Positions 1,818 to 59,585 of a DNA stretch of 64,000 nucleotides are shown piece by piece. Source of the stretch: Meiothermus luteus (GTDB taxonomy: Bacteria > Deinococcota > Deinococci > Deinococcales > Thermaceae); the NCBI RefSeq assembly GCF_003574085.1, contig NZ_QWKZ01000001.1, positions 1 through 64,000 of the forward strand, read 5' to 3'. The position numbers and the translations under genes were made by a program. A model generated the notes under the pieces. The model had not been told where the DNA came from. It saw only the letters and a program-made list of their open reading frames with translations, and ran no database searches. Every line of letters begins with the position of its first letter. The first letter of the stretch is position 1.

Positions 1818-1861
1818 CTACCTATATTGTTAAGAGTCCCGAGTCATCTAAATTCGAGGCT

Positions 1862-3720: not shown

Positions 3721-3766
3721 GAGGAGTTAGGGTCTAGGTTTCCTTGCAGACACGACGGAGGGAAAG

Positions 3767-4423: not shown

Positions 4424-4445
4424 AGGAGTGCTGGTGCCGTTCAGA

Positions 4446-4470
4446 GGAGGCCTTATGGCCTCCGCTTTTG
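4446..4470 (+). terminator. Terminator-like hairpin inside the cargo cluster
   Basis: Perfect 7-bp stem GGAGGCC / GGCCTCC with loop TTAT, followed by GCTTTTG. It sits between the acidic protein gene and the ABC ATPase gene and probably limits, rather than abolishes, read-through. Confidence 0.6.
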
Positions 4471-4486
4471 TAGGATCAGCCGGCTT

Positions 4487-5473: not shown

Positions 5474-5475
5474 AG

Positions 5476-7065: not shown

Positions 7066-7100
7066 GAGCCAACCTGCGGCGATAGCGGTGGGGGTGCTTA

Positions 7101-8075: not shown

Positions 8076-8108
8076 CCACCTACTGTCCTTATCGGAGTTG
8101 GCGACGGT

Positions 8109-8936: not shown

Positions 8937-8954
8937 GCGTTGTGGAGGAGGAGG

Positions 8955-9449
8955 ATGGCTAATAAGGACACCCGAACACTCGAGGAAAGGATAGAGGAAC
9001 TACAGGCGGTGGTGACGAAGCTCTTCGTCCAAATGGATGCCCAGCGTATTGGAGGTCCGGGGAATGCCGGTGCTGCTGATGGCGGCGAGTTGCCGGACTT
9101 TGGCCCTTGGATGGACACGACATGTTGCTACGCCAGGGTCATCGCCCTTCGGACCGACCTCCAGGGTCGCTTCCAGTTTGCCACACTTAAACTGCTGCAC
9201 GACTGCTCTGATGAGCGCCGACCTGCCTGGAGAGAGGGCGCCATCTTCGACCTGCGCAACCCGGCCTGGGAGGCTGAACTGAAGCGAGCCCAGAACTATG
9301 ACCTGCTGGTTGGTGTAAGGGTTCTTCCGGACGGACGAGTCGTCGGGATCGAACTGGCACGCCCTAACAAGAAACCCCGGGCCTCGACGCCCGGCGTTTC
9401 CCAGTTGCGAGCGGAAAGGGCACCAAAAGTGGACAAGGAGGCTCCGTAA
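8955..9449 (+). CDS. Hypothetical protein with N-terminal coiled coil (164 aa)
   Basis: Not recognised. Start chosen at ATG 8955 after an excellent GGAGGAGGAGG leader. Residues 6-30 form a short coiled coil (heptad Leu/Val), followed by a globular region with a Cys pair 'TTCCYARV' and a basic tail. It lies between the nucleotidyltransferase and the P450 with short gaps, so it is probably co-transcribed. Confidence 0.6.
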   Translation: MANKDTRTLEERIEELQAVVTKLFVQMDAQRIGGPGNAGAADGGELPDFGPWMDTTCCYARVIALRTDLQGRFQFATLKLLHDCSDERRPAWREGAIFDLRNPAWEAELKRAQNYDLLVGVRVLPDGRVVGIELARPNKKPRASTPGVSQLRAERAPKVDKEAP

Positions 9450-9458
9450 CTTTAGAAG

Positions 9459-10700
9459 GTGGTGAAGTCCAGAGCTATGCCCCCAACGGCCCCAGTCCCA
9501 CCCTTTGACCCCCTGTCGCCGGAGGTCCTTGCCGACCCCTATCCAGCGTACGCGCGCCTGCGTATGTCGGACCCTGTGCACTGGGGGATTCCCCACACGC
9601 GCGCCGGAGCGTGGTATGTATTCCGCCACGCCGACATCGCGAGCCTCCTCAGGGATCCGCGGTTGTCGCGACGACGACCGGCTACTGGGAGGGGAGTCCC
9701 CTCTGGAAGACCCATTTCCGAGCCATACCGTGGCTTTTTGCGGATGATGGCTCAACAGGTGGGATTTCAGAATACTGTTGGTCACGCTCGTCTGCGGGCG
9801 GTGATGGGGCCGCTTTTGTCTCCGCGTGCAGTCGCTGGTGTAGTCCCGCGAGTCGAGTGGGTCGCCCGCAAGCTGCTACAGGACATCGAGGACCAGCATT
9901 CCATGGATGTACTCAACGAGTATGCTCTTCCGCTGGTACTCAGGGTGTTGGCGGAATTGCAGGGCGTTCCGGAGAGTTCGTTCGAGGAGTTGCGCGCCTG
10001 GATCGGGGTGATCTCCAGTGTGAGCTCTTCCTCTCCCAAGGAAGAGCTTCTAAGAGCCAACCGGGCGGTGGCCGAGTATGGCCAGCTGGTAGAAGGACTC
10101 GCGGGGGAGGCTGGGGGGAGCCCCCAGGGAACCGTGCTGGCTGGCATGTTAGCTGCGCGGGAATTAGGACAGGTCAGCCAAACAGAATTCGTCGCGAACC
10201 TGCTGGCCTTGCTCGACGCTGGTACCCAGACCACCGCTGACTTCATTACGAACAGCGTGTTGGTACTCTTGAGCCACCAGGACCAGCTCAAGCTTCTCAG
10301 GGAGGACCCGCAGTTGCTGGGCTACGCAGTCCAGGAACTCTTGCGCTTCGAAAGCCCAGTGCAGATCGTTGGCCGCTGGGCAACTGAGAGCTTCGTTTTT
10401 CAGGGTAAAGGGATCGAGCGGGGCCAAGTCGTGTACCTAGTCCTGGGCTCGGCTAACCGTGATCCCAGCTGGGTGAGCGATCCGGACCGGCTTGACTTAA
10501 AAAGGAAGCTGGACCGTACAGCAGCCTTTGGCGGAGGAACCCACTATTGCCTAGGTGCCCCGCTAGCCCGCCTGATAGGGGGAAAAGCTCTAGAGATTCT
10601 TCTACAGTGGAAAGGCAGCTTGTCTTTGCAGACCAGCAGGCTTATATGGCGGCCCGCGTTCGGGTTTCGTGGGCTTACTGAGCTGAGGGTATCATGGTAA
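9459..10700 (+). CDS. Cytochrome P450
   Basis: A 413-residue bacterial class I P450. The heme ligand loop 'FGGGTHYCLGAPLA' (Cys near 360), the K-helix ExxR 'ELLR', and the I-helix 'LDAGTQTTAD' are present. The usual acidic residue before the catalytic Thr is Gln here. No ferredoxin or reductase gene is adjacent, so electrons must come from elsewhere. Starts GTG 9459/9462 or ATG 9477 are possible. It ends the cargo cluster, 70 bases before a transposon end. Confidence 0.9.
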   Translation: MVKSRAMPPTAPVPPFDPLSPEVLADPYPAYARLRMSDPVHWGIPHTRAGAWYVFRHADIASLLRDPRLSRRRPATGRGVPSGRPISEPYRGFLRMMAQQVGFQNTVGHARLRAVMGPLLSPRAVAGVVPRVEWVARKLLQDIEDQHSMDVLNEYALPLVLRVLAELQGVPESSFEELRAWIGVISSVSSSSPKEELLRANRAVAEYGQLVEGLAGEAGGSPQGTVLAGMLAARELGQVSQTEFVANLLALLDAGTQTTADFITNSVLVLLSHQDQLKLLREDPQLLGYAVQELLRFESPVQIVGRWATESFVFQGKGIERGQVVYLVLGSANRDPSWVSDPDRLDLKRKLDRTAAFGGGTHYCLGAPLARLIGGKALEILLQWKGSLSLQTSRLIWRPAFGFRGLTELRVSW

Positions 10701-10825
10701 TGGCAGCATGCGTATTTCAGAAGATTCGAGCCACACTTTTCGTCGGAAGCCGAGCCGGTGATTCAGTAACTCACCTTACGCGGCAAAGCTGAGAGACTGT
10801 CGTAAAAGTCCGCTATACTTGAAGG

Positions 10826-11879
10826 GTGGCTTCTACACGGAGATCTTACCCCAGCGACCTGTCGGACGCGGAGTGGGCCATCCTGGAGCCGTTGATCCCC
10901 GCCCCCAAGCCCGGTGGCCGACCCGCAAAGGTGCCGAGGAGGGAGATCGTCAGCGCCATACTTTACGTCCTGGAAAACGGCATCAAGTGGCGGGCCATGC
11001 CCCATGACTTACCCCACTGGTCTACGGTCTACCACTACTTCCGCAAGTGGCAGAAGGAGGGGGTCTGGGAGCGGGTGGCCCAGGCCCTGGTCCGGTGGGA
11101 TCGGGAGCGAGAAGGAAGGCAGGCTTGCCCCAGCGCTCTTGTCATGGATAGTCAGTCCGTCAAGACCACGGAAAAAGGGGGCCCCGGGGACACGACGGGG
11201 CGAAGAAGGTCAAAGGGAGAAAGCGGCAGAACACGGGGGGCCGTCTCTTGAACGGAAGGGGTGTGGGGCGGCAGTCCCCGACCAGACCGCAGTTCGGTTG
11301 GTCGGGGAAGGATAGCCCCGCCAGGACAAAGTCCTGTATACTGTTTTTGTAGGTCGTCCCCGGAACGGGGATGCGCGTAAAGGGAGCCGCAGGCGAGTGT
11401 CCTACACACGTTTGAGCCTGTGAGGATGGTCGCGCGAAACTCCAACCAAAGTTGGTTGCGAGTAGTTCATGGCCTTTGTCCACCCGGCCAATGAGCACGA
11501 CAAGTGGGGTGGGCAGGCGTTGCTTTTGGGGATGGACCTCTCCTTGTGGCCCCGGGTGCGCAAGCTCTTTGTGGACTGGGGCTACCGGGGTTTGCGGGAG
11601 GTGGCTAGGGGGCTGGGACTGGAGCTGGAGGTGGTGGCCCGTCCTTACGCGGGGGTGCGGGGGGTCTGGGTGCGGGAGGGGGAGGAGGTGCCGGAGATCC
11701 CGCGGGAGGGTGGGTTCAAGCCCCTGCCCAAGCGGTGGGTGGTGGAGCGGACCTTTGCCTGGATGGGGCGAAACCGACGGCTGGGGAAAGATTACGAGTA
11801 CCCCCCTGAGGTAACGGAAGCCTGGATGTATTTAGGCATGATACGCTTGCTGGTGAAGCGGCTGGCCAGGGCCGCTTAA
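10826..11879 (+). pseudogene. IS5-family transposase OrfA/OrfB, interrupted
   Basis: OrfA (10826-11251) has the N-terminal 'LSDAEWAILEPLIP' domain and first Asp 'VMDSQSVKT'. At the slippery run GAAAAAGGGGGCC (about 11170-11182) a -1 shift gives the expected 'GHDGAKKVKGRKR' and continues to 'TGGRLL', where the 218-bp insertion begins. OrfB resumes at 11469 with 'MAFVHPANEHDKWG' and runs to 11879 with 'RWVVERTFAWMGRNRRLGKDYE'. Removing the insert restores a continuous OrfB. As it stands the transposase is inactive. Confidence 0.85.
11252..11469 (+). mobile_element. 218-bp palindrome-rich element, probably IS200/IS605-derived
   Basis: The insert sits between TTGA and TGGCC of the IS5 transposase gene, with no target duplication; excision rejoins 'RLL' to 'MAFVHP'. 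It contains a 9-bp stem TCCCCGACC/GGTCGGGGA, CAGGACAAAGTCCTG followed by TATACTGTTTTT, CCCCGGAACGGGG, and a right-end hairpin CAACCAAAGTTGGTTG. No ORF. Insertion next to TTGA and subterminal hairpins fit a non-autonomous IS605-type element; its TnpA is not in the window. Confidence 0.6.
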
Positions 11880-11931
11880 GCTGGAGGAGGGGACTTTTAC
11901 AACAGTTTCTGAAATGGCATAGATTGAAAAG

Positions 11932-13033
11932 GTGAATCCCCAGCCCCTGGATTTGTACACCGATTACTTGTTGAGCAGCTTTGGAGCGGCGACGGCCACA
12001 GGATTGTCGCGGATGGTGGATGGAGCCATAAGCCACGACCAGATCACCCGCATGCTGGGGGGAGATTGACAAGGCTCGGTGCAGTTGTGGCGCAAGGTCA
12101 AAGCCACGGTGCGAAAGATACAGCGTGAGGAAGGGGTGCTGATTCTGGATGATAGCATTTTGGAGAAACCCTACACGGACGAGAACGATATAGTGGCCTG
12201 GCAATAGCAAAGAGCGGATGGTCAAGGGGATCAACTTTGTGAGCCTGTTGTATCACAGCCAGGGGCTGACCTTGCCGGTAGGCTACGTGCTGGTGGAGAA
12301 GACGGAAGTCTATGTAGATCAGAAAAGTGGCCAGCGCAAACGCCGCAGCCAGGTGAGCAAGAATGAACACGCCCGCTACCTGCTGCAAACCGCAGTGCAT
12401 AACCAGATTCCCTTCCAGCACGTGCTCAACGACGTCTGGCTTGCCTCGGCGGCGAACATGCGATTTATCGTGCTGGACATGAAGAAGCACTTTGTGATGC
12501 CGCTCAAAAGCAATCGCAAGGTAGCGCCAGGTTATCGGCACCGCCGGTATGCGCTGTGCGCACCCCCTATGAGCCAAGAACAACAGCAAAGGGGTCAATG
12601 GACAGGAGTGGAGGGTCTGGACTACCAAGACCCCACCCCCCGGCAGGTATATCTGGAAGGGGTTCCCTTCCCCCTGCTGCGGGTTCGGCAAGTCTTCACC
12701 CACGAAGATGGGAGCCAGGGGGTGTTGTATTTGTGTAGCAGCGATACCACCCTGGACTTTGAACGGATGATCGAGCTCTATCAAAAACGATGGGAGATCG
12801 AGCGCTTTCATCAATCCATCCGACAAAACGCTGCCCTGGCCAAGTCGCCTACCAAGACCCTGACCACCCAGGCCAACCATTTCTTTGCGGCTATGTGGGC
12901 CTTTGTCAAGCTGGAACTCCTCTCCCACCAGACCCAAATCAACTACTTCGCCCTCAAGGCCAAGCTCTATCTGGTTGCCAGTCGGGCTGCTTTTCAGGAA
13001 CTACAGCAGATCAAAGCTCAACTGACCGCGTAA
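11932..13033 (+). pseudogene. DDE transposase, IS701/IS4-like, decayed
   Basis: The reconstructed protein begins at GTG 11932 ('VNPQPLDLYTDYLLSSFGAA'), reaches an in-frame TGA at 12067, continues through 'VLILDDSILEKPYTDEND', reaches a second stop near 12205, then shifts frame. The long C-terminal part (from 12218) is intact and holds 'MVKGINFVSLLYHSQG', the second Asp region and 'YQKRWEIERFHQSIRQN' with the catalytic Glu. Two stops plus a frameshift make it non-functional. Confidence 0.8.
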
Positions 13034-13044
13034 GGTATACCTTC

Positions 13045-13350
13045 GTTTGCTACCGCATAGCCCCACCCCAGCCATTCTGAGGAGGACATGACTGCGAACC
13101 AGATTGTGGGCTAGGATGAGGAGGTTTATCCGGGCTACGAGGCCCCCGAAGCTCTTGCTCTCTACTTGGCGAAGCCGGAAAGACCTGACCAGGACGCCAA
13201 AGCGCACCTCTATCCAGTTTCTCCCCATCCACTCCCTCCACCTAGCGGAACCCCCGGTCCCCCAGGACCGGGCCCAAGCCCGAATCTTCCACCCGGCCCC
13301 GGGCCCAGATCTCCCCGGTGTTGCCCGGCAGGACGCCCCAGCGCACGGGG
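13045..13350 (-). pseudogene. Transposase C-terminal relic (IS982/IS5-like)
   Basis: On the minus strand, 'VLPGNTGEIWARGRVEDSGLGPVLGDRGF' is followed, after a stop and a frame change, by 'FGVLVRSFRLRQVESKSFGGLVARINLLILAHNL', resembling the last third of IS982-type transposases. Only the C-terminus remains. The relic ends at the right end of the IS701-like element. Confidence 0.5.
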
Positions 13351-13351
13351 T

Positions 13352-13879
13352 ATGAAAACCTATGCTGGGGTAGGAAGCAGGCGTGCGCCCGAGGATGTGC
13401 TAAAGCTGATGGGGAAGATTGCCCGGCGGCTGGCGGAGCGGGGCTGGGCGCTGCGAACGGGTGGGGCAGAAGGGGCTGACCGGGCGTTTGAGCGGGGGGC
13501 CCGTGCGGGCGGTGGAGCAGTTGAGGTGTTTCTGCCGTGGCCGGGATACAACGGCTACCGGGAAGGGGCGCTGAAAGCCCCGAGCCCGGAGGCGGTGCGG
13601 CTGGCGGCAGCATTGCATCCGGCCTGGGGGCGTCTGTCACCGGCGGTACAGCGGTTGATGGCCCGGAACTCCCACCAGATCTTGGGGCTCGACCTGAACG
13701 ACCCGGTGGCCTTCGTCCTCTGCTGGACACCGGACGGGGCCGAGTCGGAGCAAGAATGCGGGCCGGAAACTGGTGGCACGGGGCAGGCGATCCGGCTGGC
13801 CTCGAGGTGGGGCGTGCCCGTGGTCAACCTCAAAAGAGAGGACGCGTTGGAGAAGATAGCTCGGCTGGTCAAGGGTTGA
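13352..13879 (+). CDS. SLOG-fold (DprA/LOG-like) protein
   Basis: A 175-residue Rossmann-like SLOG protein. The 'YAGVGSRRAPEDVL' start, 'RTGGAEGADRAFERGA' loop and 'GTGQAIRLASRWGVPVVNL' end are the nucleotide-binding features. Phage and plasmid members are annotated as DprA-like or YspA-type; they bind a nucleotide ligand of unknown identity. Start ATG 13352 is where family similarity begins. First gene of the hairpin-punctuated series, with copy 1 right after its stop. Confidence 0.72.
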   Translation: MKTYAGVGSRRAPEDVLKLMGKIARRLAERGWALRTGGAEGADRAFERGARAGGGAVEVFLPWPGYNGYREGALKAPSPEAVRLAAALHPAWGRLSPAVQRLMARNSHQILGLDLNDPVAFVLCWTPDGAESEQECGPETGGTGQAIRLASRWGVPVVNLKREDALEKIARLVKG

Positions 13880-20502: not shown

Positions 20503-21510
20503 ATGGAAAAGCTAAAGCACTTTCTAACCCTGTTCGATAGACGCTCGACCCTGATGGTGCAGGCCGATGGACACCGCTACGCCCTGATGGGCGAGCGGGA
20601 GTTAGACAAAGGTCGCCTGCTCTACGCCCGCTGGAAGGCCGGAGAGGCCCAGGGGCCGGTGGTGGCGGTGGACGCTTCGCTTTTCAAAGCGGCCATCCAG
20701 CGCAGCGCCCAGGTCTCTCTGAACGGGAAGGTCTGGGTGGGCGAGGTGGGCCTCGAGTACCGCGAGGTGGAGTTTGCCATGCCCACCATTGAGCCCCAGG
20801 TCTGGGTCAGCCGCAAGGAGTTGCTGGCGAGCCTCGAGGCGGTCTACGAAGCCACCAGCACCGACCCCACGCGGGCCGTCTTTCAAGGGGCCCAGTTCGA
20901 GTTCAGCCCCACCCGCCTGAAGCTGGTAGCGAGCGACGGCTACGTGCTGGCCGAGCGCACCATCCCAGCGCGGGGGGTCTTAGAGGGCAGGGCGGTGATC
21001 CACCGCGAGGGGCTGGCATTGATGATGAAGGCTTTGAAGGGGGTGGAGGAGTTCGAGGTGGGCCTGGGCTTGAAGGAGGGCGAGCTGGGACTCAAAGCAG
21101 GGGGGCTCGAGATGAGCTTCACCCGCATAGAGGGCGAGTACCCCGATTACGAGCGGGTGATTCCCAAGCCCGAGGAGTGGCAGAGCACCATCGAGGTCTA
21201 CGTACCGGCCCTGGTAGAGGCGCTGGAGGCGCTGCGCCCGCTGTTTTCGCGTTCAAGCAACCAGCGGGTGGACGTGCAAGCGGAAGAAGGGGTGATCCAC
21301 CTCGAGGTGGACAACGAGCACGGCCAGGCGCACCGAAGGGTACCCTGTGTGGTACAGGGGGTGATGAGCTTCGCCATCAACGGGCAGTTGTTCCTCGAGC
21401 GCATCCAGCCCGTGAAGGGAACCGGAAAGCTACACTTCGTTGACCCTAAAAAGCCCGTGCTCATCGAGGGTGGAAGCTACCGGGGGGTCGTCGTGCCCTT
21501 GCGGGTATAG
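20503..21510 (+). CDS. dnaN: DNA polymerase III beta sliding clamp homologue
   Basis: A 335-residue clamp-like protein. Three repeated beta-alpha-beta units are visible; the central 'EFSPTRLKLVASDGYVLAERT' and 'ISFTRIEGEYPDYERVIP'-like segment are the DnaN hallmarks. It is about 30 residues shorter than usual chromosomal clamps, mainly at the N-terminus. The clamp tethers polymerase to DNA. A plasmid-borne copy next to an initiator and a helicase loader suggests the element supplies its own replisome parts. GGGGGAG leader. Confidence 0.85.
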   Translation: MEKLKHFLTLFDRRSTLMVQADGHRYALMGERELDKGRLLYARWKAGEAQGPVVAVDASLFKAAIQRSAQVSLNGKVWVGEVGLEYREVEFAMPTIEPQVWVSRKELLASLEAVYEATSTDPTRAVFQGAQFEFSPTRLKLVASDGYVLAERTIPARGVLEGRAVIHREGLALMMKALKGVEEFEVGLGLKEGELGLKAGGLEMSFTRIEGEYPDYERVIPKPEEWQSTIEVYVPALVEALEALRPLFSRSSNQRVDVQAEEGVIHLEVDNEHGQAHRRVPCVVQGVMSFAINGQLFLERIQPVKGTGKLHFVDPKKPVLIEGGSYRGVVVPLRV

Positions 21511-23859: not shown

Positions 23860-24468
23860 ATGGATTTGCTTCTCCTCACCGCCCAGCAGGTGGGAGAGCG
23901 CTATGGCCTCCACCGCAACACCCTGTACGCCTGGGAGCAGCAGGGGCTCCTGCATCCCGTCCGCACCCCCGGGGGTCGCAGGCGGTACCGCAGGGACGAG
24001 ATCGAGCGGCTTCTCACCCTGGAGTCCCTGCCGGTCCAGGCCGAGTCCAGGCCCCGCACCGTGCTGTACGCCCGGGTGAGCACCCGGAAACAGGAACCCT
24101 TCCTCCAGGCCCAGGTAGCCCGTCTGGAGGCCTTCGCCAGGGAGCAAGGCTGGGACTGCGAGGTGGTGGCCGAGGTGGCCAGCGGGGTCAACGAGAACCG
24201 CCGGGGACTTCTCAAGGTGCTGAACCGGGCCAGGAGGGGTGAGCTGGACCGGGTGGTGGTGGAGTACGAGGACCGCCTGGCCCGTTTCGGGCTCGGGTAC
24301 CTGCGCGCTTTCCTGCAAGCTTTTGGCGTGGAGCTGGTAGTCCTCAACGGCAAAGAGAGGAAGGAGCTCGGAGAGGAGCTGGCCGAGGACCTGGTGGCTA
24401 TCGTGGCCAGCTTCGCCGCCCGGATCTACGGGAAGGGGGATTCTGGTGAGGAGACGGGGCAAGGCTGA
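23860..24468 (+). CDS. tnpA: IS607 transposase TnpA (serine recombinase)
   Basis: A 202-residue protein with an N-terminal MerR-like HTH ('TAQQVGERYGLHRNTLYAWEQQGLL') and a C-terminal resolvase domain with catalytic Ser in 'YARVSTRKQ' and Arg-rich 'EYEDRLARFGLGYL'. It makes and rejoins the breaks that move IS607. Length and domain order are normal, so it is probably active. Its 3' end overlaps tnpB by 23 bases. Confidence 0.93.
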   Translation: MDLLLLTAQQVGERYGLHRNTLYAWEQQGLLHPVRTPGGRRRYRRDEIERLLTLESLPVQAESRPRTVLYARVSTRKQEPFLQAQVARLEAFAREQGWDCEVVAEVASGVNENRRGLLKVLNRARRGELDRVVVEYEDRLARFGLGYLRAFLQAFGVELVVLNGKERKELGEELAEDLVAIVASFAARIYGKGDSGEETGQG

Positions 24469-25999
24469 GGGTTACCAGGGCGTCCAGGCCCGGCTGGTCT
24501 TCCCTGAGCGGGAGGACGAGAAGGCGGTTCTGGATCTGATGCGCCGCTTCTCTGCGGCGAAGCGGTTCGCCTACAACCGGCTTTTAGAGGGCAGGACCCG
24601 GGAGGAGCTCAAGCGTCAGGACGGGCCCCTCTGCCCCCGCTTCCGCCTCAACACCCGCTACGCCGACGAGGCGATTGAGAAGGCCCAGGGCGTGCTGGAC
24701 TCCGCCCGGGAGCTCGGAAAAGACCCCTGCAAGGTGGTCTTCGGAGGGAGGAAGCTTTTTGAGCAGCTAAAGCGCCAGCACCTCTCAGGCAAAGATTGGA
24801 AGCGCCTGAAAAGGGAGTGGAAGGAGAAGCGCCAGGGCCTGCTCTATGCCCGGGGCGACGGGAGCAAGGGGGGCAACCTCAACCTCCGGCTGCTGGTGAG
24901 GGCAGGAGCCCTCTGGCTCCGGGTGAACCTGGGGGACGGAACTTACGCCCAGGCCCTGGTGAGGACGGGCCACCCTAACTTGGATAAGCTCCTGGAGCGG
25001 GTTCACGTGGGGCTTCCCTACAACGTGGGGCTCTCCCTGAGGGAGGGACAGGTCCAGGCCCACTTCACCTGGCCCGAGGAGCTTCCCCCTCCCACCCACA
25101 CCAAGGAGAACGGGATGCTGGGGATAGACGTGAACGCCGACCCCTACCACCTCGCTCTCGCCGTGGTCTCTCCTGAGGGGAACCTCGCCCGCTACCTGAC
25201 CCTTCCCCTGGAAGAGGTGGACTTCGCCCCCAACAAGGGAGCTAAGGAACTCCTCCTCTGGAAGGTCGCCCACCAGGTGGTGGCCCTGGCGGAGGAGCAC
25301 GGGGTAGCCGTCGCCACCGAGCGGCTCAAACACCTCCGCAAGACCCATAGGGGGGACGGCTCAGGCCGGGCCTTCCGCCGCAGGCAGCACCGCTTCGCTT
25401 ACCGCTCCCTCTTGCAGAAGATTCACGCCCTGGCCCGAAAGCGGGGTGTAGAAGTCTTAGAGGTCAATCCGCAGGACACCTCCAGCATCGGGATGCTGAA
25501 GTACGCCCCCTTGCTCTCCCTCTCCAAAGACATCGCGGCGGCCTATGTGATCGGCCGGAGAGCCCTGGGCTTCACCGAAAAGCTCCCCAAGGGCTACGGG
25601 GCCCTTCTCCGGGACGAGGGCTTCCTCGCCCAGGCCGAGGGGTTCCACCAGACCCGCCTCCGGGAGCTCCAGAAGCTCAAAGAAACTGAGAGGAACCCCT
25701 ACCTCAAGCGCAAGCTTTCCCGGGAGATGGGAAAAGCCAGGCGCTCCCTGAACCTCGTCCAAAGCCTTCGGGGCTCGCCAGGGAGCCGGAGTGGGTCAAC
25801 CGAGGGAAGGAACCCTTCCGGCATCAATCCCTGGCGGGTCCTGAGGGTAGGCCTTTTCCTTCCGTTCCTCGGGCGCGAGGTGCCGCGAGACCTCTCGCCC
25901 CTCAAGCCCTTCCTCCATGGACTGTGGGAGCGGTGGAAAACGAGCCCAGGTCCTCATCCTGGTGGGGGGCCGGAGTGCGCTAATGTGCACTTTTGCTGA
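24446..25999 (+). CDS. tnpB: TnpB-type RNA-guided nuclease of IS607, without the zinc ribbon
   Basis: A 517-residue RuvC-fold protein: first Asp 'MLGIDVNADP' (about 228), Glu 'VATERLKHL' (about 292), last Asp 'LSLSKDIAAAYVIGRR' (about 355). The CxxC...CxxC ribbon expected between the last two is absent, as in the 'TnpB-related' subgroup. TnpB proteins cut DNA guided by an omega-RNA from the element's 3' end, which here would overlap the last ~130 codons. Starts at GTG 24446. All three acidic residues are present, so cutting is plausible. Confidence 0.85.
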   Translation: MRRRGKAEGYQGVQARLVFPEREDEKAVLDLMRRFSAAKRFAYNRLLEGRTREELKRQDGPLCPRFRLNTRYADEAIEKAQGVLDSARELGKDPCKVVFGGRKLFEQLKRQHLSGKDWKRLKREWKEKRQGLLYARGDGSKGGNLNLRLLVRAGALWLRVNLGDGTYAQALVRTGHPNLDKLLERVHVGLPYNVGLSLREGQVQAHFTWPEELPPPTHTKENGMLGIDVNADPYHLALAVVSPEGNLARYLTLPLEEVDFAPNKGAKELLLWKVAHQVVALAEEHGVAVATERLKHLRKTHRGDGSGRAFRRRQHRFAYRSLLQKIHALARKRGVEVLEVNPQDTSSIGMLKYAPLLSLSKDIAAAYVIGRRALGFTEKLPKGYGALLRDEGFLAQAEGFHQTRLRELQKLKETERNPYLKRKLSREMGKARRSLNLVQSLRGSPGSRSGSTEGRNPSGINPWRVLRVGLFLPFLGREVPRDLSPLKPFLHGLWERWKTSPGPHPGGGPECANVHFC

Positions 26000-26923: not shown

Positions 26924-27457
26924 ATGCCAGATCATGTTACAAAGTTAGACCCTTTAGCCATCCTAACCAAACCCCTTACTGCTGACGAGATCGAGTGGAA
27001 GATCACCTCTCGCAAGGACGGGCAAACCAGTTTGGCTCCGTATACCGACGCTAGAGCAGTAATGACACGCCTTGATCTAGCCTTCGGGCCTTTTGGCTGG
27101 CAGGTGCGCTATACCCCGGCCCAGGTGGGCAACGAGTACGGGGTTATCGCTGCTATTGCAATCAAGCACCCCGAGACCGGCGAGTGGGTGGAGAAGCAAG
27201 ATGGCGCGGGACCGACGGATATAGAGCCTTTCAAGGGAGGGGTTTCGGGTGCGCTCAAGAGGGCCGCTACCGTTTGGGGTATTGGCAGAGAGCTCTACGC
27301 CTACCCCCGGGTGGTTGTGGAGGGCGAGCACAAGTACATCCCCTTCAAAGTTTTGAATCGCCTTAAGGGGTTGCCTAAAGCCATCGCGGAGGGCAAGCCG
27401 CTGCCCGAGGTCATCCGACTCAACGCGGAGGGGGAGAGCGTGCGGAAGGGGGGATAG
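26924..27457 (+). CDS. Rad52/DdrA-like single-strand annealing protein
   Basis: A 177-residue protein with the Rad52/22 core ('VMTRLDLAFGPFGWQVRYTP', 'DIEPFKGGVSGALKRAATVWGIGRELY'). These proteins bind ssDNA ends and promote annealing, and are common in phages and in Deinococcota. AAAGGAGG leader after hairpin copy 12. It is the last gene of the hairpin-punctuated series and fits its replication/recombination theme. Confidence 0.82.
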   Translation: MPDHVTKLDPLAILTKPLTADEIEWKITSRKDGQTSLAPYTDARAVMTRLDLAFGPFGWQVRYTPAQVGNEYGVIAAIAIKHPETGEWVEKQDGAGPTDIEPFKGGVSGALKRAATVWGIGRELYAYPRVVVEGEHKYIPFKVLNRLKGLPKAIAEGKPLPEVIRLNAEGESVRKGG

Positions 27458-37167: not shown

Positions 37168-37809
37168 ATGCAACTCTCCAGGGGCCAACAGAAGGTAGTC
37201 CAGCAGATGTCCGCGCTGAAGCGGAAACTCGGGCGCATGCCCAGTGTGCCCGAGCTCAGTGCCGCGCTGGGCTACTCCTACCAGGCCTTGCGGCAGCACC
37301 TAACTGCGCTGGAGCGCAAGGGGCTGCTGGAGGTCATCTCGCGCGGCCAGGGTCGCACTTCCGAGATCATCCTCACCCCGCAAGGAAAGTTGCTTTTGGG
37401 TCAGGGCATCCCTGTTCTGGGCTACATCGCAGCAGGGCCGATGGCCCCGGCTGTGCAGCAGCAACTGGGCCTGCTGGAGCTGCCGGGCAGCCCCGACACC
37501 TTCGCCCTGGTGGTGGATGGCGATTCGATGGCTGACTTCTTTCTGGCTGGGGATGTGGTGGTGGTGCACAGGGTGGCCCGCCCCCCCCGCCGCCGGGAGA
37601 TCTGCGCGGTCATCGACAGCGAGACCGGCCGGGCCAGCCTCAAGTATGTAACCCTTCAGGGGGATATAGCTTTGCTCGAGCCCCACAACCCCGACTATCC
37701 CAGCCTGGAGCTACCGGCCCGCGAGCTACGCCTCCTGGGCGTGTTTGAATACATGTTGCGTGGCAAAAGCCCCGAGCAACTGCTCTCTACCCTGGGGGTG
37801 GTTATGTAA
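37168..37809 (+). CDS. lexA: LexA-like SOS repressor
   Basis: A 213-residue protein with an N-terminal winged helix (residues 1-70, 'LSAALGYSYQALRQHLTALERKGLLEV') and an S24 peptidase domain: cleavage site Ala-Gly in 'GYIAAGPMAP', catalytic Ser in 'VDGDSMADF', Lys in 'ASLKYVT'. Self-cleavage with RecA-ssDNA would derepress its targets. It heads the imuB-dnaE2 set. The C-terminus is ~10 residues longer than typical LexA. Confidence 0.87.
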   Translation: MQLSRGQQKVVQQMSALKRKLGRMPSVPELSAALGYSYQALRQHLTALERKGLLEVISRGQGRTSEIILTPQGKLLLGQGIPVLGYIAAGPMAPAVQQQLGLLELPGSPDTFALVVDGDSMADFFLAGDVVVVHRVARPPRRREICAVIDSETGRASLKYVTLQGDIALLEPHNPDYPSLELPARELRLLGVFEYMLRGKSPEQLLSTLGVVM

Positions 37810-37937
37810 CCCTTTCCTAGCCCACGACTCGAGGGCGCGTTCAGCCTGCCAGCCATTTCGCGCCCTCCCCCATAGCATCCAGGGCAATGCTCCGGAGCGG
37901 TCTTCTATTGGTCTTGTCAGTATAGCAGAAATCCCCC

Positions 37938-39122
37938 ATGCCCCAAAGCCGTTCTCATCGTCCAGAGCTCGATCATCACCCCTATACCGAAGGGGTCGCG
38001 GCCCTGCTGTTCGACCCCTGGCCGCTGTATGTGGCCCGCTGCCTGAACCCTGGGCTGCCCGAAGAACCCGTAGCGGTCACACTAGGGGATCGGGTGGTTG
38101 CGGCCACCCCCGCGGTGCGCAAAGCGGGGGTAAACCTGGGGATGCGGGGTTCGGTCGCTTTGGCCAGGCTGGCCGGGCTACGCCTGATTCGACTGGAAAC
38201 CCCAATGCTGCACGCTACCTGGGAGGTGCTGCTGGAGGAGATGCCAGCCTTCAGTCCCTGGGTCGAGCTCCTCAGTCCTGGACGGTTGCTGTTGCGGGTA
38301 GACATGGCAGCGGCCCGGGTGCTGGCAGAAGTGTACAGGGTAAGGGTTGGTTTCGCCCGGTACCGCGAGGTCGCCCTGCTGGCCGCACTGTCCGCCCGCC
38401 CAGGCCGGGTTCGGACAGTCCCACCGGGCGAAGAGAAAAGCCGGACGGATCGGCTGCCGCTCTACCTGCTCAAGGGGCTGGGCCTGGGGGCGCGCTCCCT
38501 GGAATGGCTCGCGCAGCTGGGGCAGCACACCCTGGGCGACCTGCGGCAATGGAGCAAAGCGCAGCTGGAGCGCACGCTGCCGGAGTACGGGGCCCTCGAG
38601 CGCTACCTGTTGGGCCCCTGGAGTTCCCAGGTAAACCGTGCCCGGCTTCCTGAAACCATGCGGGTAGAACACCCCTTTGCCGAGGCCGCCCTCGAGCCCA
38701 GGGAGTTCGAGCCGGTACTGAAGCACCTGGCCGCGCAGCTATCCCGTGCGCTCCAGGGCAAAGGCAAAGCTGCTTTCCGGCTAAAGGTGCTCGCAACGGC
38801 CTGCGGCAATCTGCATTCTGCGGCCCGCCAGAGCAAAGTTCCACTCCAGCAGGCCGACCCCATCTACCGCCTGGCCCGCCTGACCCTGGAAGACACCGGC
38901 GCCCTGGGGCTACCCCTCGAGCAGATCTCCCTCGAGCTCTCGAGCCTGCGCCGCCCTGGGGTTCAGGGGGCCCTGTGGGAAAGCCGCCCGCAAAGCCTGG
39001 CTATCCAGGCGGTGGCCGAGCAGTTCCCCTGGACGCTGGTACAGGCGCGGGAGCTCGACCCCTACGCCCTGGCCGCCGATCAGCGCGCGGTCTGGATTCG
39101 GCTGCTGGAAGGGGATCCCTGA
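37938..39122 (+). CDS. imuB: ImuB-like Y-family polymerase homologue
   Basis: A 394-residue Y-family fold protein. The N-terminal palm segment 'ALLFDPWPLYVARCLNPGLPEEPVAVT' and little-finger region are recognisable, but the paired catalytic acids of active polymerases are missing, as in ImuB. ImuB bridges the beta clamp and DnaE2 in the mutasome. It is followed with a 1-base overlap (TGATG) by the DUF6504-type gene. Confidence 0.83.
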   Translation: MPQSRSHRPELDHHPYTEGVAALLFDPWPLYVARCLNPGLPEEPVAVTLGDRVVAATPAVRKAGVNLGMRGSVALARLAGLRLIRLETPMLHATWEVLLEEMPAFSPWVELLSPGRLLLRVDMAAARVLAEVYRVRVGFARYREVALLAALSARPGRVRTVPPGEEKSRTDRLPLYLLKGLGLGARSLEWLAQLGQHTLGDLRQWSKAQLERTLPEYGALERYLLGPWSSQVNRARLPETMRVEHPFAEAALEPREFEPVLKHLAAQLSRALQGKGKAAFRLKVLATACGNLHSAARQSKVPLQQADPIYRLARLTLEDTGALGLPLEQISLELSSLRRPGVQGALWESRPQSLAIQAVAEQFPWTLVQARELDPYALAADQRAVWIRLLEGDP

Positions 39123-39364
39123 TGCGCCGGGTAGGTCTTGCGGTTACGGTGGAGGCCCACCCCGACGGGCGGCCAGGGGCGGTGGTCTACCGCTACCGGC
39201 GGCTAGTGCTGCGCTGGTTGAAGCGCTGGCGCAGCAAGGGACGCTGGTTTCTAGGAGAGGGGCCCCGCGCCTACTGGTGGGTCGAGGTCGAGGGCGGTCT
39301 GACCCTGGAGGTCTACCACCAGGAGGGAAGCGGTCTATGGGTGCTCACGCGGATTCTCGACTGA
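39122..39364 (+). CDS. DUF6504-type small protein of the mutagenesis cassette
   Basis: An 80-residue basic protein with 'WWVEVEGGLTLEVYHQEGSGLWVLTRILD' at the C-terminus, the pattern of DUF6504, commonly attached to or beside imuB and dnaE2. Overlaps both neighbours. Function unknown; likely a mutasome accessory. Confidence 0.68.
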   Translation: MRRVGLAVTVEAHPDGRPGAVVYRYRRLVLRWLKRWRSKGRWFLGEGPRAYWWVEVEGGLTLEVYHQEGSGLWVLTRILD

Positions 39365-42300
39365 AGCCCGCGGCCCTGCACGTACACTCCTACTTTTCCG
39401 AGGGGGGTGGGGTGAGCAGCCCAGCCCGGCTAGCCCGACAGGCCGCCGAACTCGGATACGGGGCGCTGGCCCTGACCGACTGGCTTTCGCTGGCGAGCGT
39501 GGTGGAGCTGCACCAGGCCTGCCACAGCCTGGGCCTGCAGGCCCTCACCGGGGCCACCGTGCCGCTCCGGGTACATTCGCAGATCTATCCGGTGGTGCTG
39601 CTGGCGGCCTCGCGGCGGGGCTACGGCCACCTCGGCGAACTCATTACCCGAGCCCGGCAGCGGGACACCCCGTGTGTTGAACTCGAGGAACTGCTCGCCC
39701 ACGCCGAGGACCTGCACCTGCTCAGCGGGGGTCGGGCCGGGCCGGTCAGCCGTCTGCTGGCTGCACGCAAATCGGAGGTTCTGCACCGCCTGCTTTCCAC
39801 CCTGCGCTCGGCGTTCCCAGACCGGCTATGGGTTCAGCTTTTCCACGAGTTCTACCCCGAGGACGACCGGCGGGTGCGGGCCTTGTGGGCCTTCGCCCGT
39901 GAATGCTCCTTACCGGTGGTCGCGGCCCCCGAGGTGCGCTACGCGGTCCAGTCCCTCTACCCGCTGCACGAAGCCCTCACCGCAGCCCGTCTGGGCATCA
40001 GCGTCCACACCCCGCACCCCCAGGCAGTCAGAAACGATGCCCAGTACCTGCCCTCCCTGGCCGAGCTGCGCGACCGCTTTCCCTTTCCCGAGGCCCTGGC
40101 CAACACCGCCCGGCTGGCCCAGGCCTGTGCCTTCGAACTGCTGCCCGAGCGCCTGGAGACCGCAGTGCCCCTGCTACCGCCCGGGCTCTCGGCCCCGGCC
40201 TACCTGCGTCAGCGGTGCTATACCGGCCTGGAGCGGCTATATCCCTCGAGCACGCGGGAGGCTGCGAGGGCCCGACTGGAGTACGAGCTGGGAGTGGTGG
40301 AGGAGATGGAGATGGCGGGGTTTTTCCTCCTCGAGGCCGAGATCATGGATTACTGCCGCTCCCACGGCATCCTGGCGGCTGGTCGGGGCAGCGCCGCGGG
40401 CAGCCTGGTCTGCTACACCCTGGGCATCTCCCAGGTAGACCCCCTCCAGCACAACCTCCTTTTCGAGCGCTTCCTGCACGCCGGGCGGCGCTCCACCCCC
40501 GACGTGGACATTGACCTGGCCTCTCACCGCCGTGACGAGGTGCTGGCCTGGGTCGAGCAGCGCTTCGCTGGGGGGGAGCGCCGCGAGGCCATGACCGCCA
40601 ACTACATCACCTACCGGTTGCCCTCTGCCTTGCAGGATCTGGGCCGGGCCCTGGATCTGCCCATGCACCAGCGCACCCTGCTCAGCAAACTGCTGGGCCG
40701 CGACCACCGCCACCGGCGGCCCCACCAGGCCCGTCGGGCCCAGGCCATCTTCGACGAGGTTCTGGGAAACAGCCCGCTGAAGGAGGTGCTGCTTTGGCTT
40801 TTAGAGCAGATCGAGCCGGGCCACGTGCGCCACCTGGCCCCCCATAGCGGCGGGGTGGTGCTCTCTGCCCATCCCCTGACCTATTACTCCCCACTGCAAC
40901 GAAGCAGCGGGGGGATTTTGCACCTGCAACTCGATAAGGAAGGGGTCGAGCAGATGGGCCTGATCAAATGCGACCTGCTGGGTCTGCGGATGCTGGGCGT
41001 GCTGGAACGGGCCCGGGAGGAGGTATATCGCACCGAGGGGGTATGGCTTGATCTGGGTCGTCTGCCCGACGAGGCAGCAGTCTGGGATGCGCTGGAAGCG
41101 GGCGATACGCTGATGCTCTTTCAGCTCGAGAGCCCGGCCCAGATGCAGACTTCCCTGCGGGTAAAGCCCCGCAGCCGGGCCGAGCTGGCCCACCAGATTG
41201 CCCTCATCCGCCCCGGCCCCATCCAGTTGGGCACCGTGCATCCCTACCTGCGGCGGGCCCAGGGCCTCGAGGCCGAGACGGTGGTGCACCCGGCCTTAGC
41301 CCCCATCCTGGGGCCGACCCGGGGGGTTCTGCTGTACCAGGATCAGCAGCTTCGCATCCTGCACGACTGCGCTGGCTATAGCTGGCCCGAGGCCGAGCGA
41401 CTGCGCAAGAAAATCGCCCGCGCCGAGGGGGAAGAAGAGCTTGAAGAAGAGGCTACCCGATTTGTTCAGGCCGTTGAGCGTACCCTGGGCGCTACCCGCG
41501 AACAGGCCCAGGCCATCTGGCAGATGGTGGCCGACTTCCGCGGCTACGGCTTTTGCGCCTCTCACGCCCACGCCTTTGCCCAGCACGCCTACGCCAGCGC
41601 CTGGTTGCGGCTGCATTTCCCGGCGGAATACTGGGCCGCCTTCATGACCGAGCGGCCCGGCTTCTGGCCTGCCGATACCCTGCGCCAGATGGCCCACAAG
41701 CTGGGGGTGGTGGTGCTGCCCCTGGACATCAACCAGAGCGGCAGGCACTATCGCTGTGAGAAGACCCCCCAGGGTAAAGGGGTGCGCCTCCCCCTCACTG
41801 CCGTCCACGGCCTGTCGGAAACCCTGGCGGAAGCGATTCTGTTGGAGCGGCTGGAGCGCCCCTTCGCCTCCCTCGAGGACTTCTATGCCCGGGTGGCCCT
41901 GGCGCGCGACGTGTTTATGAACCTGATACGGGCCGGGGCCTTCGAGGCCCTGCTGGATCGGCGCTCTGCGCTGTACCAGGCCCAGGTTCTGTTGCAGACC
42001 CACCCAGGAGGGGCACGGCCCTTGCTGGAAGCTCCCCTGCCCCCCACCCCAGCCCTGCCCCCCCTGGAACTCCCCGAGCGCATGGCCTGGGACTACCAGA
42101 CCAAGGGTTTCTCCGAACTGGCCCTGCACCCGCTGGATCTGATGCGCTCGAGGCTGCTCGAGCTGGGCTGCAAGCCCCTGGTTTCGCTGCAACGCCTGGA
42201 AGGAGCCCAGGTGCGCACCGCTGGCCTCTTCAAGTTCTTGCAAAAACCTGAGTCGGCTCGAGGTTTTGCTTTCGTGGTTGTGGAGGACGGGACACAACTG

Positions 42301-42507
42301 GCCCAGCTCATCGTGACTCCCCAGCTCTGGGAGCGCTGCGGTCGAACGGTGCAAACCGCACAGGTGCTGGTGGTGGAGGGAGTGGTAGAGCGGGCCGGTA
42401 CTTTGCTGGCCCTCAAGGTAGAGCGGCTCTGGGGCCTTCCCCTGGAGACTACCCCCGCCCCTATCCAGCAAGCCGCGCCCCTGCCTACACTGGAAGTAGG
42501 CTCCTGA
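39337..42507 (+). CDS. dnaE2: Error-prone DNA polymerase DnaE2 (ImuC)
   Basis: A 1056-residue C-family polymerase. PHP domain at the N-terminus ('LHVHSYFSEGGGVSSP'), catalytic core 'GRGSAAGSLVCYTLGISQVDP' and 'STPDVDIDL' (Asp pair), 'LIRPGPIQLGTVHPYL', and a C-terminal OB region. It lacks the long C-terminal tail of the replicative DnaE1. ATG 39337 has AGGAGGGAAG upstream, inside the DUF6504 gene. Together with ImuB it performs translesion synthesis after DNA damage. Confidence 0.9.
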   Translation: MGAHADSRLKPAALHVHSYFSEGGGVSSPARLARQAAELGYGALALTDWLSLASVVELHQACHSLGLQALTGATVPLRVHSQIYPVVLLAASRRGYGHLGELITRARQRDTPCVELEELLAHAEDLHLLSGGRAGPVSRLLAARKSEVLHRLLSTLRSAFPDRLWVQLFHEFYPEDDRRVRALWAFARECSLPVVAAPEVRYAVQSLYPLHEALTAARLGISVHTPHPQAVRNDAQYLPSLAELRDRFPFPEALANTARLAQACAFELLPERLETAVPLLPPGLSAPAYLRQRCYTGLERLYPSSTREAARARLEYELGVVEEMEMAGFFLLEAEIMDYCRSHGILAAGRGSAAGSLVCYTLGISQVDPLQHNLLFERFLHAGRRSTPDVDIDLASHRRDEVLAWVEQRFAGGERREAMTANYITYRLPSALQDLGRALDLPMHQRTLLSKLLGRDHRHRRPHQARRAQAIFDEVLGNSPLKEVLLWLLEQIEPGHVRHLAPHSGGVVLSAHPLTYYSPLQRSSGGILHLQLDKEGVEQMGLIKCDLLGLRMLGVLERAREEVYRTEGVWLDLGRLPDEAAVWDALEAGDTLMLFQLESPAQMQTSLRVKPRSRAELAHQIALIRPGPIQLGTVHPYLRRAQGLEAETVVHPALAPILGPTRGVLLYQDQQLRILHDCAGYSWPEAERLRKKIARAEGEEELEEEATRFVQAVERTLGATREQAQAIWQMVADFRGYGFCASHAHAFAQHAYASAWLRLHFPAEYWAAFMTERPGFWPADTLRQMAHKLGVVVLPLDINQSGRHYRCEKTPQGKGVRLPLTAVHGLSETLAEAILLERLERPFASLEDFYARVALARDVFMNLIRAGAFEALLDRRSALYQAQVLLQTHPGGARPLLEAPLPPTPALPPLELPERMAWDYQTKGFSELALHPLDLMRSRLLELGCKPLVSLQRLEGAQVRTAGLFKFLQKPESARGFAFVVVEDGTQLAQLIVTPQLWERCGRTVQTAQVLVVEGVVERAGTLLALKVERLWGLPLETTPAPIQQAAPLPTLEVGS

Positions 42508-56880: not shown

Positions 56881-58884
56881 CTAGCAGGCTCCTGGACTGG
56901 AATCCAGCTCGCCTGCCGAAACCAGCGCCTCCACCTCCGCCCACACCCCCTGGCTGACCCAGTTCTGATAGTGCCAGTAGACCATCTTCCCCGGCGGGTA
57001 GCTGGACGGCAGGCTCTTCCAGGGCCGCCCCTCCCGCAGCACCAGGAAGATGGCCTCCACGAGGGAGCGCCTGGCGTAGCGGGGTGGGGCTCCTCTGGCT
57101 TGGGGTTCAAACAGCGGCTCCAACCGCTGCCACAGCGCATCGGGGAGGGGATACGGGTAGCGGGGGTCAGGCTCCCGTTTCGGACGAACACGCTTCCCAT
57201 ACACCCACCTCCAGGCTGTCCCGTTGCTCACCCCATACTTCCGGGCCAGGCTGCGGGCGCTGGCCCCTGTCCGGCGGTGCTCCTCAATCAGGGCAACCCG
57301 AACTTCTCCTTTCCCCGACGGCCCCGGCTTCTTGCGAGGAAGAAAGTAGGTCAAGTTACCTTGAATACCCCGATTGCCCTGCACACGCCTGCCCGTGTGA
57401 GGTGCAATCTGCCCAAACCTGTAACGCACCTCTATCTCAACCTCTCCCTCACCTGGCCTTACCGTCACCTTCTCCACCAGTTCCCTTGCTACCGCCTGCT
57501 TCTCTTCCGGGGTAAGGCGATCTATCCGGTCGCGTAGTCGGGCCGAGAGACTCTCCAGGGAGTGGAGGGCTTCCTTACGCTGACGCTCGGCGATGGAGCG
57601 CTCCCGCGCTGCCTCCAAGCTCGCCTGCACTTCTTGTATACGGGCTTCCAGATCCTCGATGCGGGCGTAGTAGGTCTGTTTATCTATACCTCCTTCAAGG
57701 AAGAGGTCTAGCAGACGTGCGCGGGCTTCGATGAGGGCCTGCAGGCGTTTTTCCAGCAAGGAGACCTCATTCCTTTCCGGGGATTCCTCATTCACAAAAG
57801 CCTGCAAAGCCTCACCAGGGTTCAGAAGGAAGGTGCGGATGTCCTGCCAGATGCTCTCCTCAAGCTCTGCCCGGCGCACATGAGGAGCGGTACAGCGCAT
57901 GGAGGGGATGGGAGAAGCCTGGCGGTTCACACGCCCCACACAGGCGTAATAGTCGCTTGAGCCCACATATGCCCGCCCGCAGACTCCGCAGCGTATGAGC
58001 CCTTTGAGCAGGTACACGCTGCGGGCGTTACGCGCGGCGAACAGGGCGTTTCGGGCTAGCTGCTCCTGGGCAGCCTGGAAAAGCGCGGGTTCTACCAGGG
58101 GCGGTACCGCTACCGGCACCAGATCGGGCTGAGGCTTGCGGGTGCGCTTGCCGTAGGTGTACTCCCCGATATACGTGCGGTTCTTGAGGATGCGCAGCAC
58201 CCCGCCTCCCCGCCAGACCCCGGCGGTGCGTCTGCCCCGCACCCCGCGCCCCTCACGCCGGTACTTGGGAGGTACGCCCAGGCGGTTGAGCTCCTGGGCA
58301 ACCCGCTCGGTGCTCCAGCCCCGTTCAGCAACCCAGGTAAATATCTGCCGCACCACCGCTCCCTCCTCGGGCTGGGGCGTCAGGCGACCGTCCTCAACGG
58401 TGTAGCCGTAGGGCACGATACCTCCCAGATACCGACCGCTCTGTGCGGCTTTGCGAAGGCCCAGTCGGCTGCGTTCGGCGAAGGTGTCCCGCTCCCACTC
58501 GGCGAAGACCGCCATGATTCCCAGCACCGCCTTACCGATGGAGGTGGTGGTGTTGATATTCGGCTCGGAGTAGCTCATGAGGCCCACGCCACACTGCTCC
58601 AACCGCTCGATGAGGTCGTAGGCTAGACGCACCTTGCGGGCCAGCCGATCCAGCCGGTAGACCAGCACCACCGCAAAACGTCCCTCCTGTGCGTCCGCGA
58701 GCAGGCGGGTCAGGGCAGGGCGATCCTCCTGGGCTCCTGAGTAGCCAGGGTCGGTGTAGGTGGCCGCTACCTCATACCCCAGTACCTCAGCCCAGCGCGT
58801 GAGCACCTCCTTCTGAGCCTCGAGGGAGTAGCGCTCAACCTGCTCCTCGGTGGATACCCGGGTATATATAGCGCACTGCCTCAT
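56881..58884 (-). CDS. Large serine recombinase fused to an IS5 OrfA-like (DUF4096) domain
   Basis: A 667-residue protein. Resolvase domain 1-150 (catalytic Ser in 'YTRVSTEEQ', 'YRLDRLARK'), recombinase domain to about 270, zinc ribbon 'CGVCGRAYVGSSDYYAC' (about 305), coiled coil 365-445. Beyond the usual end at ~510 residues are an HTH ('TGASARSLARKYGVSNGTAWRWV') and about 95 residues matching the IS5-type OrfA N-terminus ('YPLPDALWQRLEPLFEP', 'RRSLVEAIFLVLREGRPWKSLP'). The fusion is unusual. Start overlaps the repressor stop (ATGA). Confidence 0.85.
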   Translation of the reverse strand: MRQCAIYTRVSTEEQVERYSLEAQKEVLTRWAEVLGYEVAATYTDPGYSGAQEDRPALTRLLADAQEGRFAVVLVYRLDRLARKVRLAYDLIERLEQCGVGLMSYSEPNINTTTSIGKAVLGIMAVFAEWERDTFAERSRLGLRKAAQSGRYLGGIVPYGYTVEDGRLTPQPEEGAVVRQIFTWVAERGWSTERVAQELNRLGVPPKYRREGRGVRGRRTAGVWRGGGVLRILKNRTYIGEYTYGKRTRKPQPDLVPVAVPPLVEPALFQAAQEQLARNALFAARNARSVYLLKGLIRCGVCGRAYVGSSDYYACVGRVNRQASPIPSMRCTAPHVRRAELEESIWQDIRTFLLNPGEALQAFVNEESPERNEVSLLEKRLQALIEARARLLDLFLEGGIDKQTYYARIEDLEARIQEVQASLEAARERSIAERQRKEALHSLESLSARLRDRIDRLTPEEKQAVARELVEKVTVRPGEGEVEIEVRYRFGQIAPHTGRRVQGNRGIQGNLTYFLPRKKPGPSGKGEVRVALIEEHRRTGASARSLARKYGVSNGTAWRWVYGKRVRPKREPDPRYPYPLPDALWQRLEPLFEPQARGAPPRYARRSLVEAIFLVLREGRPWKSLPSSYPPGKMVYWHYQNWVSQGVWAEVEALVSAGELDSSPGAC

Positions 58885-59585
58885 GGCCGGCGGAACTCCC
58901 CATGAACGATGCCCACCGGAACATACGCGGCCTTCCGGCCCGCAGGTGTCTGGAGTGAGCCGTCGGGCAGAAGCCAGAAGGTTGCCCCGGTGCCCCCGAC
59001 CGGACGTACCAGACTGGCCTCGGAGGGGAGGCGGAAAATCAGGGGGCGGCGGATTTCCTCGACAAAGCCGAGCAGGGTAACGCCCCGTTCCAGAGCCGCT
59101 CTGCGTTCGACCACCAGTACAGAGCCCTCGCTAAGCTGCAACTCCTCTGAGCGCAGCGCCTCCCGCTCCAGCAAGGCCAGAAAGAAGCTGGTGTAGCCCG
59201 GGCGGGTTGGAAGCAGGCGGGTGTCCAGGTAGCTTCTGCTGGGCGCTTCCTCCCCCACGCAAGCGGGGGCCAGGGCAGGGTAGTAGGGTATGGCGACAAC
59301 GCCAGGGGCAGAGGGTGCAAACTCTTCTGCTGCGCCCTCGCCGAGCAGCACTTCAATCGAGGGCAGGTGCAGGGTGCGCAGCAGAGCCTGTAAACGCCCC
59401 ACGCTCATGTCGCGAATGTCGTGGGCTCCTCGCTCGAGCTTGGCAACAAGGGAAGGGGAAACTCCGGCGGCCAGGGCCAGGCCTTCGCGGGAATAACCCA
59501 GTTTCTCACGCCGGGCCTGCAGAAGTCGGGCCCACTGGGGTGTGTGGATTTCTGTGGGGGCTGTACGGAAACTTTTCTTAGGCAT
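58881..59585 (-). CDS. CI-like Xre repressor (234 aa)
   Basis: N-terminal HTH at about 18-62 ('LQARREKLGYSREGLALAAGVSPSLVAKLERG') and a C-terminal S24-like beta domain in which the catalytic Ser/Lys pair is not obvious. It is divergent from a Cro-like gene across 62 bases of AT-rich palindromic DNA and precedes the recombinase gene with an ATGA overlap, so it probably controls excision or transfer. Confidence 0.78.
   Translation of the reverse strand: MPKKSFRTAPTEIHTPQWARLLQARREKLGYSREGLALAAGVSPSLVAKLERGAHDIRDMSVGRLQALLRTLHLPSIEVLLGEGAAEEFAPSAPGVVAIPYYPALAPACVGEEAPSRSYLDTRLLPTRPGYTSFFLALLEREALRSEELQLSEGSVLVVERRAALERGVTLLGFVEEIRRPLIFRLPSEASLVRPVGGTGATFWLLPDGSLQTPAGRKAAYVPVGIVHGEFRRP

Follow-up and report, generated by a model that had tools for sequence, protein, structure and literature searches.

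What protein is encoded where a large serine recombinase gene continues, in one unbroken reading frame, into a segment of the kind that begins IS5-type transposases? The frame in question occupies positions 56881-58884 of the minus strand (read from 58884 to 56881; 667 codons) in the window, that is, the whole 64,000-nucleotide stretch of Meiothermus luteus DNA analysed here. The first-pass annotation, which named no strand, had described a serine recombinase joined in frame to a helix-turn-helix (HTH) and an IS5 OrfA-like segment, and Pfam confirmed both the order and the lengths. The recombinase part (residues 1 to ~497) contains a Resolvase domain at residues 5-152 (2.2e-39), followed, as in serine integrases, by a Recombinase domain at 172-279 (1.6e-18) and a zinc ribbon at 292-350 (2.1e-11). 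After it come HTH_23 at 529-561 (1e-4, slightly below the curated cut-off) and DUF4096 at 580-651 (1.6e-20; 73.5 bits versus a cut-off of 34.3). Residues 577-655 also align to the first 81 of the 258 positions (2-81) of the NCBIfam IS5 transposase model, a match that is itself below the cut-off.

The recombinase module (codons 1-498, positions 57391-58884, minus strand) consists of catalytic, recombinase, zinc-ribbon and coiled-coil parts, as delimited by Pfam, by relatives of 77-87% identity and by PDB matches to the TP901-1 and A118 integrases, which reach residue 475. A plasmid-borne relative from outside the group, Deinococcus gobiensis WP_014686872, has 497 amino acids and no tail, so the earlier estimate of a normal end near residue 510 was close. 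Phage and plasmid records yielded only distant recombinases, the best with 43.5% identity over 72% of the protein. Immediately upstream, and overlapping the gene, lies an XRE-type regulator (58881-59585, minus strand), which is the neighbour of the recombinase in genomes G007, G016, G022 and G023 as well.

In a protein search of 198 genomes, residues 1 to ~500 were found at 77-87% identity in five (G007, G016, G020, G022 and G023), all of the same genus or family as the window's genome. Residues 491-667, or parts of them, were separate matches at a distance of about 76-172 kb, with the strand unchanged, and in four of the five (all except G020) recombinase and tail stood at opposite ends of an integrated element. 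When the DNA was compared, recombinase copies matched to the left of one point only and tail copies to the right only, with an overlap of 13 bp. This breakpoint, CACACGGGC to the left and AGGCGTGTG to the right, lies between codons 498 and 499 and is common to all recombinase and tail matches.

Four half-sites meet at the breakpoint: recombinase end, tail, comM 5' half and comM 3' half. The comM gene (YifB/Mg-chelatase-like) is cut at its AMNPCPCGW codons, on the antisense strand. When 51 genomes were scanned for the site patterns, attB turned up as intact comM in relatives lacking the element, attR together with attL in G007, G013, G016, G022 and G023, and attP in the window's genome only; the reversed pattern, used as a control, was mostly absent. 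The comparison of occupied with empty sites, advised by the first-pass annotation, solved the case: in four genomes the outer flanks of attL and attR could be joined to give a ComM protein of 496-497 amino acids that aligned without gaps to intact copies. Since the breakpoint is shared and the flanks are two comM halves that join to a whole ComM, the window holds attP. The arrangement has the features of a serine-integrase attachment system: a short attP and attB, unlike each other except for a common core, attP beside the gene, and both attL and attR. The recombinase would be the catalyst of the attP x attB exchange.

The attP site (57372-57409, minus strand), delimited by the shared breakpoint, the site types and the symmetry and invariance of its arms, consists of the arms GATTGCACCTCACACGGG and GGCGTGTGCAGGGCAATC around a CA dinucleotide at 57391-57390. 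The arms form an imperfect inverted repeat (13 of 18 pairs, P 3e-5). The 24 bases to the left of the crossover are identical in eight recombinase genes, and codons further out vary. On account of the arm symmetry CA is the putative exact point of exchange; the core GGGCAGG also permits neighbouring dinucleotides.

Neither attB nor attR was assembled in the window's own genome, where the 5' half of comM is missing. A true loss of this half was considered and rejected: contig C5 ends inside the adjoining ROK gene, so the absence is an assembly gap. G020 is an exception among the relatives: beyond its recombinase end comes DNA from upstream of a coaD-like gene in place of comM (L055 2905-3024), and a tail (L056 2724) lies beside cargo DNA, which may mean a rearranged or a secondary site. 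As a secondary site G020 might have fixed the crossover base, but none of seven genomes yielded the intact joined empty site; the left flank resembles cargo of the element and the right flank lies upstream of the coaD-like start, and G020 was therefore left aside for this purpose. In G066, which has no recombinase match, an attR-like match is probably plain comM codon usage (TGC CCG TGT). Viral contigs contained neither att arm.

These results bear on the two explanations offered by the first-pass annotation. A stable domain fusion that gives the recombinase a new target specificity would account for the single open frame and for the intact state of both parts. In all integrated relatives, however, the parts are separate, at opposite element ends in G007, G016, G022 and G023, and they meet exactly at the attachment core; the joined site occurs in no other genome of the 51. 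We regard such a fusion as very improbable. The annotation had named homologues that all stop near residue 510, together with flanking IS ends unique to this sequence, as what would refute its observation. Half of this applies: the chromosomal homologues do stop at 501-512 amino acids, but they are short because integration has replaced their tail.

The other explanation, an old IS5 insertion that is read through, draws on the fact that IS5-type transposases begin with DUF4096, and is extremely improbable in our judgement. It is at the att core that the segment joins the recombinase, an HTH precedes DUF4096, and the reading frame ends after DUF4096 with no DDE catalytic domain downstream. The same HTH-DUF4096 arrangement is common to six tails from six genomes, and in 13 genomes the tails of more than 20 junctions all begin at the same core. 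No intact IS with the segment was found, and the best candidates for a nearby intact IS5 as the source of DUF4096 (M. hypogaeus L045 and G023:C2 L144) resemble decayed tails beside comM remnants rather than IS elements. Given the origin of DUF4096, long tails may nevertheless have captured a piece of this type behind their HTH.

The window (positions 1-64000) is part of contig C1 (94,983 bp), whose identical 127-bp ends close it to a circle of 94,856 bp; an overlap of this length fits a circular contig from an assembly with k=127, k being deduced from three such overlaps. The gene order of C1 (recombinase, XRE regulator, DUF927 protein, VirB4-, VirD4- and VirB11-like proteins, contig end, cargo at 1.5-13.9 kb, tail) is that of the integrated elements, circularly permuted, which identifies the junction at 57.4 kb as the closed form of their open ends. 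From attR to the nearest attL the integrated elements measure about 78 kb (G023), 92 kb (G016), 100 kb (G007) and 131 kb (G022). C1 encodes a type IV secretion ATPase (VirB4/TraC-like) and a coupling protein (VirD4-like), as expected of an integrative conjugative element (ICE), and no relaxase was detected among the C1 proteins scanned, which covered part of its ORFs. Circular and site-specifically integrated forms, likewise expected of an ICE, are both represented, the closed contig fitting tandem copies equally well. In this strain the recombinase-tail junction could thus derive from head-to-tail chromosomal copies instead of a free circle. Such copies would yield an identical closed contig on assembly, and two other contigs of the genome, C186 and C162, show tandem or looping cassettes (see below), whereas the integrated relatives have single copies; on balance we consider a head-to-tail origin unlikely, and it leaves the identification of the junction as attP unchanged.

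The reading that we prefer, and hold to be very probably correct, is that the ORF crosses the attP site of a circular, ICE-like element of Thermaceae (Meiothermus group) that integrates in comM. It is built on sequence data of several kinds: the crossover point, the four site types, the empty and occupied targets, the closed contig and the in-frame, constrained tails. Recombination of attP with the attB in comM, with crossover at or beside the CA dinucleotide, would bring about integration. While the element is circular, the frame of the recombinase gene would continue past attP into sequence from the far end, and the product would be the 667-residue protein, HTH and DUF4096 included; once the element is in the chromosome, the frame would run into antisense comM and yield 501-512 residues without a tail. 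Integration would thereby swap a tail of 169 residues for up to 14 antisense-comM residues, and excision would restore a tail. The tail ORF of the integrated element, which stays next to the comM 3' half at the other boundary, could have a product of its own, started at a GTG (codon 501). With attP inside it, the recombinase gene is predicted to yield one of two proteins, depending on whether the element is free or integrated, and probably both forms are made.

In the attR form the recombinase has 512 amino acids in G007, G016 and G022 and about 501 in G023, and its C-terminus is RGSWPQSAKTAQDR or similar, with up to 14 residues from antisense comM. Here, as in integration switches of the BPs type, attP lies within a coding gene and integration alters the C-terminus of the product (667 versus 501-512 amino acids). 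A second recombinase copy in G007 (L059 1534-4211) is 99% identical to that of the window over residues 1-375, is broken at residue 375 by other DNA, whose opposite strand carries a transposase-like ORF, and again ends at the comM 5' half.

The tail (codons 499-667 and the stop, 56881-57390, minus strand) comes from the opposite end of the element and forms a separate ORF in integrated relatives, where it adjoins the comM 3' half and has a possible start of its own, the GTG at codon 501. It contains an HTH (residues ~525-564; 57193-57312, minus strand), recognized by HTH_23, by a three-helix model and by invariant residues, and, in long tails only, the DUF4096 segment (residues 580-651; 56932-57147, minus strand), supported by the Pfam match and by alignment. 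Short tails of 68-74 codons carry the HTH alone, and long ones of 160-182 codons carry HTH and DUF4096. AlphaFold predicted three helices for the HTH (pLDDT about 88), a second helical region over DUF4096, and disorder in the first 22 tail residues, which are largely encoded by the att arm. Searches of the PDB by sequence and by fold gave no significant match to the tail.

All tails start at the att core and are open in the recombinase frame from there into or through the HTH region, with no stop between core and HTH. Their first 27 bases are strongly conserved (22 of 27 invariant among 16 alleles). Beyond these bases the variation is coding-like, with a pN/pS of 0.41 over the HTH in the recombinase frame versus 0.89 and 1.18 in the other two frames. 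The tail may matter for recombination. One could go further and propose that the recombinase rewrites its own C-terminal DNA-binding domain: it would be tailed when the element is free and tail-less when integrated, cassettes would supply alternative tails, and the state would feed back on the direction of recombination or the choice of partner. We put this forward tentatively, as a possibility that we doubt somewhat more than we believe it.

Against it stands the view that the tail is a passenger: attP lies at the 3' end of the gene, the next stop codon is far beyond, and the HTH (with or without DUF4096) is selected only as a separate small regulator at the other element end. The constraint on tail codons would be equally expected if the tail were translated alone from the GTG at codon 501, since this start lies in the frame of the read-through. 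At 497 amino acids the tail-less relative is complete, and some tails have decayed (that of cassette X, described below, and those of L063 and L045, in which DUF4096 is frame-shifted). A passenger explains less well why the recombinase frame is kept from the core on in every tail, as an internal start would free the first codons; the shared att arm is in part responsible for this conservation. We give the passenger view about an even chance of being right.

In several genomes, units bounded by sites of the comM 3' half/tail type adjoin comM without a recombinase, and each ends in a comM 3' half. G002 has intact comM and two attL sites, but no recombinase, and extra attL sites also occur in G022 and G023. 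Arrays such as that of G002, with recombinase-less units bounded by att sites at one target, have the make-up of accretion arrays. The distal comM half of G023 is 91% identical to the comM of another genus versus 76% to that of its own neighbour, so comM halves appear to travel with the cassettes.

Two contigs of the window's genome contain such cassettes. At its start, C186 joins the recombinase end of the window to a different tail; its interior has cassette X twice, in identical 7.65-kb copies, and its end joins a comM 3' half to the tail of the window. C162 leads from chromosomal genes through a comM 3' half into a 5.6-kb cassette and then loops back onto this cassette. Assembly overlaps connect the cassettes with the attP of the window and with themselves; most simply read, these overlaps suggest that several consecutive attL sites would permit composite circles and single-cassette loops. 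The exact 7.65-kb tandem pair (L057 1-15545) and the self-overlapping 5.6-kb cassette (L058 3769-9480), both with comM-type sites, are overlap-joined to the attP of the window and may be taken as a sign of recent or ongoing cassette movement. The cassette cargo includes a SagB-type peptide dehydrogenase, a class III lanthionine synthetase fragment and ABC exporters; in L058 the lanthionine synthetase fragment and the SagB-type dehydrogenase (TIGR04511), at 1465-2421 and 4364-5584, lie beside or inside comM cassettes.

The serine integrases of phages A118 and U153 insert in comK, a competence gene (PMC3556126). The system described here likewise combines a large serine recombinase, an attB in a competence gene, unlike attP and attB sites and a very short core, but it belongs to a conjugation-type element, targets comM and has its attP inside a recombinase ORF that continues for 169 codons beyond. 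In the integration-dependent immunity of phage BPs and its relatives, attP lies in the repressor gene, the integrase is a tyrosine recombinase and the target is a tRNA gene (PMC9262239). There, too, attP is in a coding gene, and integration removes the 3' end and changes the protein; the gene cut is that of a repressor, whereas in the present system a DNA-binding tail is lost from the recombinase itself. Archaeal SSV-type integrases are tyrosine recombinases with the attachment site within the gene, whose body is split by integration. The location of the site within the integrase gene is shared with them, but in our case the exchange is confined to the tail and leaves the catalytic part intact. 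Serine integrases are one-way tools, the direction normally being set by a separate factor. In engineered integrase-RDF fusions a small protein on the C-terminus of a serine integrase changes the direction (PMC5737554); unlike these man-made proteins, the tail found here is natural and predicted to bind DNA, and a directionality factor would be one possible role for it.

Further parallels are the tandem serine-recombinase islands at ssrA of Dehalococcoides, and cis-mobilizable elements and accretion (PMC3146451). The comM arrays resemble them in consisting of units at one target, some without a recombinase, bounded by att repeats; they differ in their target and in that each unit brings a recombinase tail and a foreign comM 3' half able to complete the gene. 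From the same bacterial family an ICE of about 15 kb, ICETh1, is known at a tRNA-Ile gene of Thermus thermophilus (PMC7767461); by its att site it is unrelated. In the open-access literature we found neither a serine integrase ORF that runs through attP into a conserved DNA-binding tail nor a serine-integrase element in comM of Thermaceae.

If the self-rewriting proposal is true, an enzyme whose own reaction alters its gene would act as an intrinsic sensor of whether the element is free or integrated. The attP, attB and core sequences, given to the base and from a thermophile, are useful for genome engineering. The comM arrays offer a route by which clusters for peptide biosynthesis and export may spread among Thermaceae, and through its comM 3' half each cassette can complete a competence gene that was interrupted. 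A more general caution is that an unusual domain fusion, when found in a circular contig, calls for a check for an attachment site before it is taken for a new enzyme.

Other parts of the window also deserve mention. The cargo cluster at 1484-13879 encodes an FAD oxidoreductase, an ABC transporter, an aldo/keto reductase-like protein, a P450 and IS-like ORFs; the predicted products recur at 99-100% identity in three other species belonging to two genera, which indicates very recent transfer. Adjacent genes for LexA-like, ImuB-like and DnaE-type polymerase proteins (37168-42507) form a mutasome-like set on the mobile element, which also encodes a beta clamp (20503-21510) and a Rad52-like protein (26924-27457). 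At 23860-25999 a small serine resolvase gene followed by a TnpB-like ORF looks, by eye, like an IS607-type pair.
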